39,763 nt of DNA from a bacterium (lineage in GTDB: Bacteria > JAJVIF01 > JAPKYR01). Positions 4,895-39,763 of the stretch are shown piece by piece (the first letter of the stretch is position 1; each line of letters opens with the position of its first letter). Under the pieces are notes generated by a model. It had not been told where the DNA came from. It saw only the letters and a list, made by a program, of their open reading frames with translations, and made no database searches. The translations under genes were made by a program, and so were the position numbers. The DNA is taken from the NCBI GenBank assembly GCA_026394215.1, contig JAPKYR010000186.1, positions 1-39,763 of the forward strand. The letters are read 5' to 3'.

Positions 4895-5045
4895 CCGAAT
4901 AAAACCGCTAAAAGCCCTGCCGCATCCGGCAATTAACAACCCGCTTTGTTGGATATTATTATTGGTGGTAATGTCCTTCGACATAGATCGTTTGAATCTC
5001 TGACGGTATGTCGCAGGCTGAATCGAGAGCGGTCTGGAGGATATC

Positions 5046-5342
5046 TTGTCCGAGATCGGAAGAAGAGTTGCGATTATTTTCGGCGGGGGCGCTTTTACAA
5101 TAAGCGTTCTTGTCGGCGTTATTTCCAACAGCGACCTGATGTATACCTGCGTGCTGGGACTTCTTGCGGGGATTTTTTTCGGAACCGGCGGATTATTGAT
5201 CGGCAACCTGGCCGAAAAATATGTCTACCAGGCAGCCCAGCGTGAAGTTACGCGTCGCGCAATGGAACAAAAAATCGCTCAGGAACTTATCGGGGAAAAA
5301 GGACCGGATGAAACCGAAGAGGGATCGCAGGACGAAAATTGA
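5046..5342 (+). CDS. Small two-TM membrane protein upstream of a sigma factor gene
   Basis: A 98-residue protein of no family I recognise. The TTG at 5046 is chosen because GGAGG stands five bases upstream and the frame gives a clean membrane protein. Residues about 8-25 (IIFGGGAFTISVLVGVIS) and 31-54 (a Gly-rich stretch, LLAGIFFGTGGLLIGNLA) are two transmembrane helices. The remaining 45 residues form a charged helix with an acidic tail. It is followed after 31 bases by the tail-anchored protein at 5374 and then by the FliA-like sigma gene, so these three probably form one transcript. A link to motility or sigma control is inference from position only. Confidence 0.75.
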   Translation: MSEIGRRVAIIFGGGAFTISVLVGVISNSDLMYTCVLGLLAGIFFGTGGLLIGNLAEKYVYQAAQREVTRRAMEQKIAQELIGEKGPDETEEGSQDEN

Positions 5343-5373
5343 TCTCAAGTCCAACGGTCCGGCTTAACCTGTT

Positions 5374-6468
5374 ATGGAAGATGGAATCGTGACATGCCTG
5401 GCGAATGAGATGGACGTGACTGAGGATCTCGCCCTGATAGCCGTTACCGAAGCCAACGGGGAGATCGATAAGGCGCGCGAGATTGTCAAGGGGCTCATCC
5501 CACGCTATCTTTTCATCAAGGTTAAATTTATCGCAATCCGAAAAGAACAGGCAGGCTTGATTTTCCTTCTCACCGAAAAAGGCAGGCCGGATTTCATTCT
5601 CTTCCGTGCTATCGCCGAAACGGACACCGCATGGGTCAACAGCCATCCGGTTAATGTGCCACCGGCCAATTTTTTCAACACGATCAGGAAATATTTCACG
5701 GAGCAAACGACCGGACCCAAATTATTCGACTCACAGCAAATGCGCGCAGAAATTGCCAAAAGACTGAACGCTTCAGCGCTACAGTACCTTTTCTCGCTAT
5801 GGGACCAGCCGAAAACCGAGTTAATTCCCGAATCCATTCCATCTGAAGAAGTAACCAATCAGGTCGGCCCGATCATCAATGACCTGATTTCCAGGTTACT
5901 TGAAGACATTTTTATCGACAAAATCAAAGTCGATCTCGATTATGATTTTATGACGGATAAGAATTTCAGGACAATTGCCCAGGAACTTGGCCTCGAAACC
6001 ACAACATACAGCGCAGTTTTATCCCAGGAAGATCCGGAACATGCCGAGGGTTTGAAAGTATCTCTTAAAGGCCAGTTCATGATCGATCCCGTAAACGGCA
6101 TTCCTTCCCAGGAACTCAAAGTAAATGACAGCGCCTATGTGGAAGTCCTCGATCGCAGCGAATTAGGCGTATCAATCGGCAAATTAATAGGCGCATACAG
6201 GATGGGCATGTGGCGTCCGGTTCGATGCAGAATTGAAGAAATAGTCCAGCTTACCGGCGAACGATGGAGATTCCGTCTGAAGGTCACAAAGGGGATTTTT
6301 GTCGATGTGCTGTCTTACGAGAACATCCTGGTCAGGAATAAACCTTACACCAGGAGAATTACTCCCGTGAAAGCAGCCGAGGAAAAAAGCGAAATGAACT
6401 TTATGCCTCTCCTCGTGGGAATAGTCGTCATGATAGCCATAATCGTTCTTCTTGTAATATTGTTATAG
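5374..6468 (+). CDS. Unknown protein with UBA-like N-terminus and C-terminal membrane anchor
   Basis: 364 residues, not recognised. The first 40 residues contain MDVTEDLALIAVTEANG followed by EIDKAREIV, the pattern of a UBA/EF-Ts-like three-helix domain. Residues 45-115 form a compact alpha/beta region. The middle (about 150-300) is mixed and ends in a beta-rich module (AYVEVLDRSELGVSIGKLIG and RPVRCRIEEIVQLTGERWRF). The last 24 residues form one hydrophobic helix (LLVGIVVMIAIIVLLVILL), so the protein is probably a tail-anchored membrane protein with its bulk in the cytoplasm. An in-frame TAA just upstream (5365) excludes a longer start; no good ribosome site is seen, and ATG 5410 is an alternative. 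It lies 73 bases before the sigma gene. Confidence 0.75.
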   Translation: MEDGIVTCLANEMDVTEDLALIAVTEANGEIDKAREIVKGLIPRYLFIKVKFIAIRKEQAGLIFLLTEKGRPDFILFRAIAETDTAWVNSHPVNVPPANFFNTIRKYFTEQTTGPKLFDSQQMRAEIAKRLNASALQYLFSLWDQPKTELIPESIPSEEVTNQVGPIINDLISRLLEDIFIDKIKVDLDYDFMTDKNFRTIAQELGLETTTYSAVLSQEDPEHAEGLKVSLKGQFMIDPVNGIPSQELKVNDSAYVEVLDRSELGVSIGKLIGAYRMGMWRPVRCRIEEIVQLTGERWRFRLKVTKGIFVDVLSYENILVRNKPYTRRITPVKAAEEKSEMNFMPLLVGIVVMIAIIVLLVILL

Positions 6469-33706: not shown

Positions 33707-35389
33707 ATGACCGGACACCTATACCTCGCTGGATTTTCAGGATCGGGCAAAACATCGGTCGGAAAAGAACTCGCACAGCGCTTGAAAGTCTGTTTCATCG
33801 ACCTTGACGATGAAATCGCAAGACGCTGCGGGAAAACACTTATCGATCTTTTCACCGAAAAATCCGAGCAGACTTTCCGCACGATAGAAATGGAATTCCT
33901 GAACGAGCTTGCCTCCAAAGTTGAAGCAGGCGATCCCGGCAGCGTCGTTGCGCTTGGCGGCGGTACTCTGATAAATCCGGCGGCGCAGGAAATTGTCCGG
34001 GATTCCGGGAAACTTGTATGGCTTCGCGCGCGGTGGAACACTATTTTTGAGCGGCTCGCGGAAGTCTCCGACCGTCCGCTTATTCAAAAAGCTGAAAAAC
34101 TTCATGAATTCATTCAATACAATCGCCCATTCTACGAAGCGCGCCTTCCGGGATATGCGCACTGCGACCTTGTCCTCGACGTCGACCACATGAGTTCGAA
34201 TGCTACCGCGACTGCGATCACGCGCATTATGGATTCCGCATGGTTCCTGACAGTCAGCTTTTTCGAACGGACTCATTCGGTTCTCTGCGACTCCGGTCTT
34301 CTTGCGAGAACCGGTCAGATGCTTTACCAACTCGGTATTCTCCCGCGCGGACAAGTATGGCTTATCACAACGGGAACTCTCGACCGCGACAACCTTCCGC
34401 TCGCCCGGATAGTCAAGGAAGACCTCGAAAGTACGCGACAGGAAGTTCGGGTGCTTAGAATTCCCGACGGCGAAGAAGCGAAATCCATGGAGGAAGTGGG
34501 GCGGATTTACGATGCCCTGCTCGGGTCGGGCACATCGCGCGACGATTTGATCATTGCCCTCGGAGGCGGGACTGTTACCGATGTGGCCGGATTTGTCGCG
34601 GCCACATATCTTCGCGGAATCGACATTGTGCAGATTCCGACGACTCTGGTTGGGATGGTCGATGCCGCTCTTGGCGGAAAAACCGCTATCAATCACGAAC
34701 GCGGGAAAAATCTTATCGGCGCGTATCATCAACCGAAAACAATTCTGATCGATCCGGTTGTCCTGAATACTTCTGCCGACGAATATTACATGGCAGGCCT
34801 CGCCGAACTCATAAAATACGGCTGCATTTCAGATAGCACCATCATCGATGAGTGCGAGGAAAACTGGGCGGATATTCTGAATCGCCCGACATGGGAGGAA
34901 GCGTGGACTCGCGAGGGATGGGAAAAACTGAAAGGAAACCCGTGGATTCTTATCGACCTGATCCGAAGGGGTCTGCAGATCAAGTCGAGGATAGTCTCTG
35001 CCGATGAACGCGAGGTTACGGGCGAACGAACGCTCCTTAATTTCGGCCACACATTCGCGCATGGGTTTGAAAACGCGAGCGGTTACACAATCCCGCACGG
35101 GCAGGCGGTGGCGCTTGGGATGCGCGCGGCTTTCAGGCTCAGCCTCGATCGCAAGCTTGTCACAAAGGACGAGGTGGCGAGGATGGATCGGCTTCTCGAT
35201 GTGCTCGCGCCGACCGAATTGATCCGCAATCTGAAAATCGACAAAACCATGCAGGCAATCCGTTACGATAAAAAGCGAACCAGGGGCGGACTTAAATTCG
35301 TCTTGCCGGTGGGTCTTGGAGTCGTCGAGATATTCGATGATGTCTCTGAGGATCAGATCAAAAAGGCGTTGGATGATCTGGTGGTGTGA
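33707..35389 (+). CDS. aroKB: Fused shikimate kinase / 3-dehydroquinate synthase
   Basis: 560 residues joining two non-consecutive steps of the shikimate pathway to chorismate. Residues 1-175 are shikimate kinase: P-loop GFSGSGKTSVGKELA, FIDLDDEIARRCGK, the FRTIEMEFL arginine, ALGGGTLI and the lid RPLI. Residues about 180-560 are dehydroquinate synthase: LIIALGGGTVTDVAGFVAA, QIPTTLVGMVDAALGGKTAI, GLAELIKYGCI with catalytic and NAD/zinc residues, ERTLLNFGHTFAHGFE and IPHGQAVALGM. Both halves have the usual length and intact motifs. An insertion of about 25 residues (NRPTWEEAWTREGWEKLKGN) sits in the helical part. It has its own promoter and no other aro gene beside it. AroK-AroB fusions are known in several phyla. 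Confidence 0.95.
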   Translation: MTGHLYLAGFSGSGKTSVGKELAQRLKVCFIDLDDEIARRCGKTLIDLFTEKSEQTFRTIEMEFLNELASKVEAGDPGSVVALGGGTLINPAAQEIVRDSGKLVWLRARWNTIFERLAEVSDRPLIQKAEKLHEFIQYNRPFYEARLPGYAHCDLVLDVDHMSSNATATAITRIMDSAWFLTVSFFERTHSVLCDSGLLARTGQMLYQLGILPRGQVWLITTGTLDRDNLPLARIVKEDLESTRQEVRVLRIPDGEEAKSMEEVGRIYDALLGSGTSRDDLIIALGGGTVTDVAGFVAATYLRGIDIVQIPTTLVGMVDAALGGKTAINHERGKNLIGAYHQPKTILIDPVVLNTSADEYYMAGLAELIKYGCISDSTIIDECEENWADILNRPTWEEAWTREGWEKLKGNPWILIDLIRRGLQIKSRIVSADEREVTGERTLLNFGHTFAHGFENASGYTIPHGQAVALGMRAAFRLSLDRKLVTKDEVARMDRLLDVLAPTELIRNLKIDKTMQAIRYDKKRTRGGLKFVLPVGLGVVEIFDDVSEDQIKKALDDLVV

Positions 35390-35450: not shown

Positions 35451-35488
35451 GCGTGGTTTTAGGTAAAGCTGAGACAAGGAGGATAAGC

Positions 35489-36288
35489 ATGAAAAAAGAA
35501 ATTATCGTAAAGTTGCACAGCCAGTTCGAAGCGCTTGTGCAAATTGAGACCGAAAACAACACGGAGTTTTGGCTTGCCAGGGATCTGCAGCAAGCGCTCG
35601 GGTACAAGGAATGGCGGAACTTCAAGCTGGTCATCGAGAAGGCGATGACATCCTCTGCGAACGCGGGCTTTGACACCAAGGACCATTTTGTTGAGGTTAA
35701 CAAAATGGTCGATATCGGCTCTGGCGCCACCCGAAGGAAGAGATCGCATTCGCGCAAACATATTTTGCCATACAGACTCGAAAAATGGAACTGATAGAGG
35801 CTCGCTTGGCTGAGATAGAGCGTCTCGGGGCACGGAAGAAGTTGTCGGTATCGGAAAAGGAATTATCGGGGATCATTTTCGAGCGCCTGGGCGAGGGTCA
35901 GAGCTTCGCAAGGATTCGCAGCAAGGGAGATGAAGCGTTATTTGGCGGGCATACTACGGCTGACATGAAGGCTAGGATGAAAGTTCCTGACAGCCGTCCC
36001 CTGGCTGATTTTCTGCCGACTATAACAATCAAGGCAAAGGATTTAGCGAACGAGATCACAAATTTCAATATTAAAAGAGACGATCTCCGAACCGAATACA
36101 GCATCACCGATGAGCATATTAAAAGCAGCAAGGGCGTCAGGAGAGCTTTGACCGACAGCGGGATTAAACCGGAAGCCCTGCCTGCGGACGAGGATATCAA
36201 GAAATTGGAGAGGCGGCTCGAATCGGAGCAGAAAAAGCTTCCTAAAACGGTTGATAAATTAGAGCTTCATGAAGAAGGAAACGAATAA
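35489..36288 (+). pseudogene. dinD: DNA-damage-inducible protein D (DinD), broken by an internal frameshifting deletion
   Basis: A perfect ribosome site (AGGAGG) precedes ATG 35489. The first frame encodes the DinD N-terminus (FWLARDLQQALGYKEWRNF, KLVIEKAM, DHFVEVNKMVDIGSGA) but then leaves frame near 35730. The rest lies in another frame from about 35737: EEIAFAQTYFAIQTRKMELI, then DEALFGGHTTADMKARM and EELRTEY-like ITDEHIKSSKGVRRAL. Roughly 15-25 residues that normally lie between GSxAxR and EIIALGQTYFAVQTR (containing the DYxLSRYACYLI element) are missing. It is therefore not only a frameshift but a deletion whose length is not a multiple of three. In E. coli dinD is LexA-controlled; no LexA box is seen here. 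Half repeats flank the gene. Confidence 0.8.
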
Positions 36289-36294
36289 GGTAAT

Positions 36295-36365
36295 TAGCCC
36301 GGTAATTCATTGGCTGGGAAATTAAGATATAAACAAAAAACCCGGCGGATGAGTCGCCGGGCTAC
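36295..36365. repeat. Double-hairpin REP element, copy A
   Basis: It begins TAGCCCGG and ends CCGGGCTAC. Hairpin 1 is weak here (CCCGG ... CTGGG). An AT-rich linker (AAATTAAGATATAAAC, then A-run) leads to hairpin 2, CCCGGCG-GATGAG-TCGCCGGG. Copies B, C and D lie at 37394, 37683 and 39254. Confidence 0.8.
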
Positions 36366-36469
36366 TTACTGCTTGTCGGCGTAGTTCAAAACAAAGGCGA
36401 AGCATAACAAATCCCGGTGACCGTTCGCTGGGAAATGCGGCTCTCTTCTCTTGCAAGGTGGTTACCATA

Positions 36470-37369
36470 ATGAATAATGACTTCTACTTGGTTTGTTCTG
36501 AAGCCCCACTTTTTTCCCCTCGTAAATGTCGTATACGCAGACGTCTTTTTAGTCAACATGGTGTAGGTCACGCACTTGTTGAATTAGACCCTCCTCTACT
36601 AGGCAATGTTATGGGGATTGGTGATGACATCACACATCTGGTTATGGAGCCACACGGACCATTGAGCATGTTTCTTCCCCGCTTTCTTTGGCGATGGCCA
36701 TTTGAAGTTCATTATTCTGGTATTCGAATATCCGAGATACCGTGGATTGGGTATTTCAATTCAGGCACTACTATTGGAGGCAATATTGGCCTTCTGTACC
36801 CCAGCGAAACAGAAGCTCTCGATAAAGCATGGAATACTATGGTGGCGGAGGATGGAGGCACGATACAGCTGATTATGGATCGTTCAGATATTTTAGAAAT
36901 CAAGACATCCTATCGAACATTCAAAATAGAGAGGATGGATTCAATCGAAAAAGTCCCATTTGACAAGCGCAGGAAAAACCTCCTCAAGCGGATAACTCAT
37001 GAATTTCCCAATTCGTATTTGCGATTTGTTCGTGACCCAGTTAGTGACGGGCTTAAAGGCAACTGGATCTCCGCGGACGGATTTTGGCAAATTCCAACCG
37101 GAGTAGATGTTGAGGAATTATATAGCTGGTTGGCCGAAGGATGTTGGTTTCTTTATGTTCCTAGAGGGGGAACCGTTGCCTTAAACAATGAGGACTTACA
37201 GAGCCTTGAGTTGTGTGTTCATGTCAAAATTATGAAGGATTTGAAAACCATTCTTCTCTTAAGCTCATCGGTTGGCAATAAGGAGTGGACTATTTCAACT
37301 GACTGGCGAATAAGATATAAAGAAATTTTCGATGAATCTCCCAAACATCTTGATTACCTTTCCCTTTGA
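36470..37369 (+). CDS. Protein of unknown function (299 aa), AT-rich
   Basis: Not recognised. ATG 36470 is chosen because AGGTGG stands eight bases upstream; a GTG at 36458 would add four residues. No signal peptide or membrane helix is seen. Features include GVGHALVELDPPLLGNVMG, GDDITHLVMEPHGPLSMF, a Trp-rich segment (RFLWRWPFEVHYSGIRI), a basic middle (FDKRRKNLLKRITHEFPN) and a beta-rich end (WTISTDWRIRYKEIFDE). The MEPHGP and IGYFNSG segments look like strands of a small enzyme or an immunity-type fold, but nothing is conclusive. Codon use is AT-rich compared with aroKB. It stands alone between two REP copies (A and B), so it may be a mobile passenger. Confidence 0.65.
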   Translation: MNNDFYLVCSEAPLFSPRKCRIRRRLFSQHGVGHALVELDPPLLGNVMGIGDDITHLVMEPHGPLSMFLPRFLWRWPFEVHYSGIRISEIPWIGYFNSGTTIGGNIGLLYPSETEALDKAWNTMVAEDGGTIQLIMDRSDILEIKTSYRTFKIERMDSIEKVPFDKRRKNLLKRITHEFPNSYLRFVRDPVSDGLKGNWISADGFWQIPTGVDVEELYSWLAEGCWFLYVPRGGTVALNNEDLQSLELCVHVKIMKDLKTILLLSSSVGNKEWTISTDWRIRYKEIFDESPKHLDYLSL

Positions 37370-37393: not shown

Positions 37394-37458
37394 GTAACCC
37401 GGCTGCCGGGAATGTTGATTAATAAACAAAAAGCCCGGCAAATGAATTGCCGGGCTAC
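37394..37458. repeat. Double-hairpin REP element, copy B
   Basis: Hairpin 1 is short (CCCGGC-T-GCCGGG). The linker contains TTAATAAACAAAAA. Hairpin 2 is CCCGGCAA-ATGAA-TTGCCGGG, ending GGGCTAC. The AA/TT pair replaces the G/C pairs of copies A and D while keeping the stem. It stands directly beside the duplicated pnp tail (37493). Confidence 0.85.
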
Positions 37459-37492
37459 ATAATTCCTTAATTTTTATCACACCGATTTTTCT

Positions 37493-37672
37493 CTACCGAT
37501 CTCTTCTATCCCGTCCGCCACCGCCACCGGGTCGTCGGTCACGGTCTCCGCCTCGTCCCCCACCGCCGCCACCTGGACGTCGGTCTCTGTCGCGGCTTCC
37601 CCCGCCATCACGATCTCTCGGAGGTCTTGAATCTCTGTCTCGGTCCCTGTCTCTTGGCGGTCTGTCGGGCAT
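37493..37672 (-). pseudogene. Duplicated 3' end of pnp (Arg/Gly/Asp-rich tail only)
   Basis: On the minus strand this 59-codon frame reads MPDRPPRDRDRDRDSRPPRD followed by RDGGGSRDRDRRPGGGGG and RDRRDR, nearly the same as the tail of the pnp gene at 39361-39549. The copies agree from the ATG of MPDRP, internal to pnp, to the stop codons. Outside this the sequences differ, apart from a REP element placed just beyond the stop in both (B here, D there). No promoter, ribosome site or S1 domain precedes it, so it is a duplicated fragment, not a gene. Confidence 0.8.
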
Positions 37673-37682
37673 ATTTTTCAGT

Positions 37683-37757
37683 GTAGCAGCCCGGCGATCC
37701 ATTCGCCGGGAAATTAATATATAAATAAAAAACCCAGCGAATGGGTCGCCGGGCTAC
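37683..37757. repeat. Double-hairpin REP element, copy C
   Basis: Hairpin 1 is CCCGGCGA-TCCAT-TCGCCGGG. The linker is AAATTAATATATAAAT plus an A-run. Hairpin 2 is CCCAGCGAATGGGTCGCCGGG with one broken pair, ending GGGCTAC at 37757. The stop codon of the membrane protein gene begins at the very next base (37758-37760). Confidence 0.85.
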
Positions 37758-39212
37758 CTACTGTGTATCCTTACGCTTGAAAAGCCAAAGATCACGGACA
37801 TTGTATGCCAACGTGTAGTCCCTGGTGAAGCTCGGGGACCGTAAGAGCACACGACAATATAAAAACCGGCTTTTCAATCCGTCCTCGGAAATTTCCCCTA
37901 AGAGCAGGATGTATCGAGGTCTCCTGGCTAAAACATATGACTCGTCGAACTTGTAGTGGATCTTGCCCGGTAGACGGGCTATGTGTTTGTCCATAAGACC
38001 GAAACAGTCAACGAGTCTAACCTGACCCACGTAAGGAATAAGCCCTGCTTCACCTGTCGCCAGATAGTCCTCTCTTGATGCGTTTCTTAGCAGCCATTCC
38101 CCCATCTGAAGATAATGCGAATACACAGGGGATTCCCAGGAGAGTCTCTCCCACACCCAGGGGCTTATCCCAAATTGTGCGTGGATGCGCTGGGCGGCAG
38201 GGAACCCTCCGATGATCATCAGCGGGAAGACAATAAAAAGAATTACATAGCGTGATCTAAACAATCTGGCAAAGCGGTCAAGACCATCCGCGATCACCCA
38301 TGCAATAAGTGGAGCTACATGAATCAGAAATCTCGCTGCCGGCATCCAATCGCCACCCGAAGCGACAATGAAAACAGTGTATGCTCCGAGCAGGATGAGA
38401 GAGATTTGCCTCCCAGGACGTCGCCCGGCGATTAGTCCTGTGAGTAACAGGGGAACCATTGAAAATAACATAGTGAACCAGGCAATAGAGACAAACAGAT
38501 ATTGTGCACCACCGACAATGTCCAGAGATGACGCCTTGGCGTAGTATGTATTCGGGAGGAGGTCCCCGAAAAATGATAGCCGAAACAGCAAGTACGCGAT
38601 GAATGGACCCGCGGCCAGCAGAAAGTCACGGACGATGAATGGTGATCGATTCTTTTTTAAATATCGTCTCCATATAAAATAAAACGGCAGAAGGAAGGGC
38701 ATCTCCGGACGAGTAACTGCGATCAGCCCCATTGCAAGGGGGCTGATCCAGGAGACGGCTCCTGCGACCTCCCCGTAGAGCAAGAGAGCAAACAGTAAAG
38801 AACTAAATGAAGTTTCAAGCCCTCCAACGCTCCACACCCAAAAGCAAGGGTTCAGAGCGAGGAAGATCGATGCGAAGGGCAGTCTGTCAGGTATTGCGCG
38901 ACGCTCAGCAAAATAAACGAGGAGTACAGTGCCGGCAGCGGCAAGAATCCCAAGGGCTTTCGCGATCCACAGCATGGCAAGCGGATGCTGACCCTTGAGC
39001 ACAAGACTGAACAGGGTCATAATAAGAACCCAGGTAGGATTGGAGTAACCTTCCACTCGCTCGCCCGGATTGTACACGGGACCTTCCCCGAGGGCGATAT
39101 TGTCTGCGTATCGGAAAGTTATGAAGGGGTCGTCAAGGTTGAAATTGATGAAGATCGTAGCTCCAATCAGGAGAGCGAAAAGCAAAGCCATTAGAGCAAG
39201 ACGACTGTACAT
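37758..39212 (-). CDS. GT-C-type integral membrane glycosyltransferase (AftB/ZomB-like)
   Basis: 484 residues with about ten transmembrane helices. The first loop carries NFNLDDPFITFRYADNIALG and VYNPGERVEGYSNPTWVL, the DD-x-F-I-[ST]-x-RYA and GERVEGY-[ST]-N hallmarks of a GT-C-like family that includes mycobacterial AftB and bacterial ZomB. The Asp pair is the likely catalytic or metal site facing the periplasm. The C-terminal soluble part has LATGEAGLIPYVGQVRLVDC followed by FGLMDKHIA, as in the family. It would move a sugar from a polyprenyl-phosphate donor onto an unknown acceptor. TACAAT lies only about eight bases before ATG 39212 with no ribosome site, so the mRNA may be nearly leaderless. 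It is flanked on both sides by REP plus pnp-tail copies, a sign of insertion. Confidence 0.85.
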   Translation of the reverse strand: MYSRLALMALLFALLIGATIFINFNLDDPFITFRYADNIALGEGPVYNPGERVEGYSNPTWVLIMTLFSLVLKGQHPLAMLWIAKALGILAAAGTVLLVYFAERRAIPDRLPFASIFLALNPCFWVWSVGGLETSFSSLLFALLLYGEVAGAVSWISPLAMGLIAVTRPEMPFLLPFYFIWRRYLKKNRSPFIVRDFLLAAGPFIAYLLFRLSFFGDLLPNTYYAKASSLDIVGGAQYLFVSIAWFTMLFSMVPLLLTGLIAGRRPGRQISLILLGAYTVFIVASGGDWMPAARFLIHVAPLIAWVIADGLDRFARLFRSRYVILFIVFPLMIIGGFPAAQRIHAQFGISPWVWERLSWESPVYSHYLQMGEWLLRNASREDYLATGEAGLIPYVGQVRLVDCFGLMDKHIARLPGKIHYKFDESYVLARRPRYILLLGEISEDGLKSRFLYCRVLLRSPSFTRDYTLAYNVRDLWLFKRKDTQ

Positions 39213-39253
39213 AATGCGTGATTGTAGTCGATAACGCGCTGAAAAAGAAGTAT

Positions 39254-39326
39254 GTAGCCCGGCATCACCGATGCCGGGATTTTAATAAATATATCAACAA
39301 ACCCGGCGAATGGATCGCCGGGCTAC
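39254..39326. repeat. Double-hairpin REP element, copy D
   Basis: Hairpin 1 is CCCGGCATC-ACC-GATGCCGGG. The linker contains TTTTAATAAATATATC. Hairpin 2 is CCCGGCGA-ATGGA-TCGCCGGG. It starts GTAGCCCGGC and ends GCCGGGCTAC, so the two ends are inverted repeats. It lies between pnp and the membrane protein gene. Confidence 0.85.
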
Positions 39327-39360
39327 ATAATCTCTAAATTAAAATCCCCCCCGATATTTT

Positions 39361-39763
39361 TTAACGGTCTCGTCTATCCCGTCCGCCCGAACCTCGATCT
39401 CCTCCGCCGGGTCGACGATCTCCGCCTCGTCCGCCACCGCCGCCGCCACCCGGACGTCGGTCTCTGTCGCGGCTTCCTCCGCCATCTCGATCTCTCGGAG
39501 GTCTTGAGTCTCTATCGTGATCTCTGTCTCTCGGCGGTCTGTCGGGCATATTATTAAGCCTTTCAAGTATCGGATCGCCGTCGGGGAAATCCAGATCGCG
39601 TCGGGATAGAGATATCTTCCCATTGTCCCTGTCGATTTCCTGAATTCTTACCCGCACGATATCGCCGACATGCAGACAATCTTCTATATTCTCGACCCGC
39701 TTCTCGCAGACCTGGCTGATATGCAGAAGCCCGTCTGTCGAAGGAGTCAATTTTACAAATGCG
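39361..39763 (-). CDS. pnp: Polyribonucleotide nucleotidyltransferase, C-terminal S1 domain and tail (5' part outside the window)
   Basis: The minus-strand frame is open to the window edge and gives AFVKLTPSTDGLLHISQV, GDIVRVRIQEIDRDNGKISL and SRRD: the end of an S1 RNA-binding domain as found at the C-terminus of PNPase. It is followed by a disordered Arg/Gly/Asp-rich tail (RPPRDRDGGGSRDRDRRPGG) of about 60 residues, which would add RNA affinity. A ribosomal protein S1-like gene is the alternative; the single S1 domain, the SRRDLD ending and the RDR/GG tail favour PNPase. The last 190 bases of the gene are duplicated at 37493-37672. No terminator other than REP D follows. Confidence 0.75.
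   Translation of the reverse strand, partial: AFVKLTPSTDGLLHISQVCEKRVENIEDCLHVGDIVRVRIQEIDRDNGKISLSRRDLDFPDGDPILERLNNMPDRPPRDRDHDRDSRPPRDRDGGGSRDRDRRPGGGGGGGRGGDRRPGGGDRGSGGRDRRDR

Follow-up and report, generated by a model that had tools for sequence, protein, structure and literature searches.

The window analyzed here is a whole contig (C300) of 39,763 bases from a single metagenome-type draft genome in 321 contigs (G000), which we compared with a second genome of the same genus (G001) and with two genomes of the same class from other families (G002 and G003). A congener record in GTDB (L115), 83% identical to our genome in the fused shikimate kinase/dehydroquinate synthase, carries the label Planctomycetota. 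Between aroKB, which ends at 35389, and pnp, which occupies the minus strand from 39361, the window contains a dinD-like gene, REP A, an orphan gene, REP B, a copy of the pnp tail, REP C, a GT-C-type membrane gene, and REP D. We consider this interval to be accessory since valS follows aroKB in L115, and since pnp is followed in G002 and G003 by an M16-type peptidase reading frame (assigned by eye) that is unrelated to the window sequence. The orphan gene (36458-37369, plus strand) encodes 303 aa and has a G+C content of 42.5%, as against 49% for the window; it belongs to no family that we could find, and it has no relative in 14 of the 15 other genomes, the genus mate giving one weak match. 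As for the dinD-like gene (35480-36288; PRK11525, E 4e-27 over the first 83 positions), it consists of two overlapping frames and is either a pseudogene or frameshifted.

A first-pass annotation of this DNA had described, on the plus strand, the order REP B, tail copy, REP C, membrane gene, REP D, and pnp tail, with direct repeats of about 280 bases around the gene. This layout is borne out, with REP A further to the left, and the repeats are real, spanning 37394-37681 and 39254-39558 (roughly 290-305 bp) with 242 of 280 aligned bases identical. In each, the ~60 codons at the end of pnp are followed by a 34-nt spacer and a double hairpin; between the two repeats lie the membrane gene and REP C. 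The tail joined to pnp (39361-39549, minus strand) runs for 62 codons plus stop from an internal ATG, and REP D (39254-39326, plus strand), a GTAG-tagged REP dimer of two inverted hairpins, lies 34 nt after the pnp stop. The second, displaced tail (37493-37672, minus strand) is an open frame of 59 codons plus stop, with REP B (37394-37458, plus strand) as the counterpart of REP D; the distance from stop to hairpin is the same 34 nt in both copies. As the first reading had it, the copy begins at an internal ATG of pnp and extends to the stop; ahead of the ATG, the match continues for no more than AAT and a few bases. Homology ceases within a few bases of this ATG, beside REP C (37683-37757, plus strand), a dimer that sits at the non-homologous junction, its left foot ~10 nt from the ATG and its right foot abutting, as had also been noticed, the TAG stop codon of the membrane gene. 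The longest exact repeats in the region measure 26 bp (direct) and 23 bp (inverted), the 26-bp match falling inside the repeat, and a 20-bp exact match is found at the boundary where homology starts.

No third copy of the pnp tail was found in a search of G000, and the repeat is thus not a chance match between low-complexity sequences; a weak tail-like match on contig C186 proved on inspection to be unlike a pnp tail. Serial insertion at one site, giving A-B and C-D units, is ruled out because no third tail lies beyond REP A (36290-36365, plus strand), the fourth dimer of the cluster, which directly follows the dinD-like stop codon.

The pnp gene was first taken to be intact, which it is not in the window. 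The contig end falls inside the gene, leaving 133 codons (39361-39762, minus strand) that encode the end of the S1 domain and a disordered Arg/Asp/Gly tail. The assignment is supported by Pfam S1 (E 4e-11) and by TIGR03591, of which positions 634-688 are covered; within the class, the S1 part is most similar to the pnp of G002, with 53% identity over 60 aa. When we checked for the RNase PH, KH, and S1 parts of pnp, the S1 end alone was present on C300, and a 5' fragment of pnp was found at the end of contig C78 of the same genome. In the genus mate, there is only the 5' part of pnp. That contig ends split pnp in each of the two genus members (C78 and C300 in G000; C409 in G001) may reflect chance or strain variation. 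Between genera, pnp tails are very different.

The membrane gene (37758-39212, minus strand) encodes 484 aa, and by sequence comparison it is a predicted GT-C-type, glycosyltransferase-like gene with a distant relation to the arabinofuranosyltransferase AftB over its N-terminal region. This region matches the AftB structure 9dlf (E 2.5e-6) and the AftB model NF041481 (E 4e-9 over 82 aa), and no Pfam family was found for the gene. It is not AftB proper, since its score of 34.9 bits falls far short of the full-length equivalog cut-off of 1050. Counting our own, 15 of 59 genomes contain a match at E up to 0.001, and the best foreign matches are 28-36% identical; the genus mate has no near homologue (34% at best), and viral contigs yielded no relatives of the protein. 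With a G+C content of 50.5% and a GC3 of 54%, the gene is close to its neighbors. The bases that precede the REP foot at its end (AGTA and then A, G, or T, followed by GTAG) recur in other REP copies, which suggests that the stop codon of the gene may have arrived with the REP.

All four double hairpins are GTAG-tagged REP dimers in head-head orientation, and thus REPIN-like. The ends of REP D read GTAG and CTAC, as do those of REP C after a shift of 2 nt; in REP B the outer foot reads GTAA, and in REP A it is decayed; the fold z-score of REP D is -5.4 as DNA and -6.3 as RNA. Using a covariance model built from eight dimers, we found at least ~17 REP places in G000, at least 11 in G001, and at least 45 in G003, the weakest of which may belong to other families, and none in G002 at E up to 0.01. 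The REPs are therefore not specific to the pnp locus but form a family dispersed in the genome and the class, intergenic in the copies inspected; of the top eight places in G000, four lie in the window, within 3.1 kb. A, B, and C resemble intrinsic terminators for minus-strand transcripts, and D and, weakly, B do so for the plus strand; their shape suggests that they probably serve to terminate transcription at these gene ends.

GTAG REPs are known as hairpins with a GTAG foot that form head-head dimers 20-100 bp apart (REPINs), lie near gene 3' ends, and, in REPtrons, surround a Y1 transposase gene in inverted orientation (PMC3733652, PMC8266576). G000 has eight genes for Y1_Tnp (RAYT-type) transposases, and at least one of these, on contig C211 (L080, C211:12000-22000; gene at 4947-5678), is flanked by inverted GTAGCCCGGCAT REP dimers that are also detected by our covariance model and are related, but not identical, to the REPs of the window. 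This locus has the anatomy of a REPtron, in a little-sampled lineage. Other Y1_Tnp genes (L081, L082, and L083, on contigs C97, C21, and C305 of G000) lie near inverted or repeated palindromes of different families, and G000 therefore seems to hold several REP/RAYT families. In the genus mate, two copies of a dispersed repeat on contig C35 (L121; 70-357 and 2800-3044) form a filled and an empty site, one with a REPIN and the other without, a sign of REPIN mobility. We also considered this place as a further example of a gene flanked by direct repeats, but it is not comparable, the repeats being members of a dispersed intergenic family with 61 matches in G001 and none in G000. Another candidate, C30 (L131), was rejected because its repeat resembles low-complexity intergenic sequence and not a gene end.

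How the two pnp tails differ turned out to be the most telling property of the locus. Over the 57 aligned codons, a low-complexity sequence, 19 differ, 18 of them silently and one with an amino-acid substitution (pS 0.40, pN 0.012, Fisher P 4e-10), and the reading frame is kept, every gap in the alignment of the two coding sequences being a multiple of three. In ~20,000 neutral simulations with 20 substitutions, none gave one or fewer non-synonymous codons. With differences at 40% of synonymous and 1.2% of non-synonymous sites, selection must have acted on both copies as coding sequence through most of the time since they separated; if the two sides changed at equal rates, it can have been absent from the displaced copy for ~13-18% of that time at the most (95% bounds, one or two events). 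Plain local duplication followed by drift, which would give mostly amino-acid changes, is ruled out by this pattern. An insertion flanked by direct repeats of the pnp end, as the first-pass annotation proposed, thus fits, whereas its duplication of that end, in the simple sense, does not. Two options are left: either the tails served until recently as functional ends of pnp in two lineages, which is the more likely, or the 59-codon copy was itself selected.

The most likely origin for one of the tails, as far as sequence comparison can tell, is thus another lineage. The divergence of the tails (Jukes-Cantor dS ~0.57) is well under that between G000 and its congener in aroKB (pS 0.67, dS ~1.6), so that the donor would be more closely related to G000 than the congener is. 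The 34-nt spacer and the REP dimer occupy the same position in both copies with comparable divergence, which indicates that the REP is older than the split of the tails.

The account that we favor, with a little better than even confidence, is that DNA from a relative replaced the end of pnp, brought in the GT-C gene, and displaced the old end. A segment composed of a pnp 3' end, 34 nt of spacer, a REP dimer, the GT-C gene, and a second REP dimer would have come from a related but distinct lineage and entered at the 3' end of pnp. Its first junction would have formed by homology within the pnp tail, the spacer, or the REP dimer, and its second without homology, right beside REP C, either from linear DNA, by homology-facilitated illegitimate recombination, or from a circle closed at REP C. 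The old tail, pushed downstream of the new gene, would be a displaced remnant, and pnp, the rest of which lies off the contig, would have received its working end from the incoming DNA. Either tail may be the foreign one, and the direction of the event could be the reverse. Several points count against this account: no donor genome or empty site turned up among the genomes compared, the pnp of the genus mate being broken; the tail comparison covers 57 codons of low-complexity sequence; the composition of the GT-C gene shows no foreign sign; and the silent pattern is also expected if the short reading frame is a selected gene.

It is unlikely that the locus is instead the remnant of a phage- or island-like element that integrated site-specifically at the pnp 3' end with a replacement tail and has since lost its integrase and most of its cargo. 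Such an element would account for the architecture and the silent substitutions, which are those of prophage e14 at icd, and direct repeats are indeed present, with a 3' end of pnp that would be element-borne and an exact 20-bp match where homology starts. This match is unremarkable, though, given the 26-bp match within the repeat, and the only gene between the repeats is the GT-C gene, with no integrase and no phage gene; in the literature searched, we met no case of an element integrating in pnp. We find it improbable to the same degree that the pnp end was duplicated locally and the 59-codon copy then selected as a short Arg/Gly-rich protein, possibly made together with the GT-C protein. 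The preserved frame, the gaps in multiples of three, the ATG start, and the single amino-acid substitution are what would be expected of such a gene, but no Shine-Dalgarno-like sequence is seen before its ATG, a G+C-rich REP hairpin ends ~16 nt upstream of it, no free-standing relative of the tail occurs in the four class genomes, and pnp tails differ greatly among genera.

More doubtful still is mobilization by RAYT and REPINs, in which REP C and REP D would be the ends of a composite single-strand transposon that took the GT-C gene and the pnp end and was inserted by recombination. The first-pass annotation had also entertained a REP-mediated event; the elements are true GTAG REP dimers, with one at the non-homologous junction, while a REP- or RAYT-driven event is inferred. 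The REP at that junction, the eight Y1_Tnp genes, one of them flanked by inverted GTAG REPs, and the paired sites with and without a REPIN in the genus mate would all suit it. Against it, known RAYT/REP systems move REPs, with no example of gene carriage in the literature searched, and REPINs favor gene 3' ends anyway, so that their presence at the junction may be a coincidence. The broader idea that REPINs and RAYT carry ordinary genes, as REP-ended cassettes such as that of the GT-C gene, which would move between related cells with the pnp end as homology arm and repair the gene they enter, we hold to be just as doubtful. A shade less probable is an old tandem duplication of the whole pnp gene, with both copies working until all but one tail was recently lost and the GT-C gene inserted. 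This would explain the silent divergence without a foreign donor, but it requires a long-lived duplicate, and in none of the class genomes searched were two near-full pnp genes present; next to the tail copy, no other part of a second pnp is left. Least probable of all is an assembly chimera, an error of the kind that the first-pass annotation had named as a possible objection, in which the pnp ends of two co-occurring strains were joined: this is a metagenome-type draft with contig breaks within pnp, but no exact repeat is long enough to produce such a join (26 bp at most for direct repeats and 23 bp for inverted ones), and the junction of REP C with the tail shares no long word with pnp.

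If tail replacement from a relative is the correct account, the 3' end of a core RNA-decay gene was the site at which a new gene was acquired, with the host end apparently swapped for one from another lineage and no integrase involved. Should REPINs help to make such junctions, they would have a role in gene gain besides their own spread. Silent-only divergence of a displaced end offers a simple test between foreign tail replacement and local duplication, for any gene end found twice.

The closest parallel is prophage e14 at icd (icdA/icdC) of E. coli K-12, where the end of the gene has been replaced with 12 SNPs, 10 of which are synonymous (PMC4759930). As in our locus, an incoming version of the 3' end is accompanied by the old end on the far side, with mostly synonymous differences; in contrast to e14, our locus has no integrase or phage genes, and its single cargo gene is bounded by REP dimers. 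In Vibrio T6SS and Rhs loci, displaced 3' regions have been attributed to homology-facilitated illegitimate recombination (PMC5361080). There too, a module is anchored by homology on one side and the old 3' part is kept downstream, but the tail of Rhs/T6SS effectors is variable and selected for change, whereas the amino-acid sequence is almost unchanged here. As for the gene gained, it can be aligned with the AftB-like GT-C arabinofuranosyltransferases at the N-terminal region, far under the family cut-off. Finally, the repeats share with known REPIN/REPtron systems the GTAG foot, the head-head dimers, the sites at gene 3' ends, and the Y1 transposase with inverted REPs, and differ from them in that G000 has few copies and that its REPtron carries a related, not an identical, REP.
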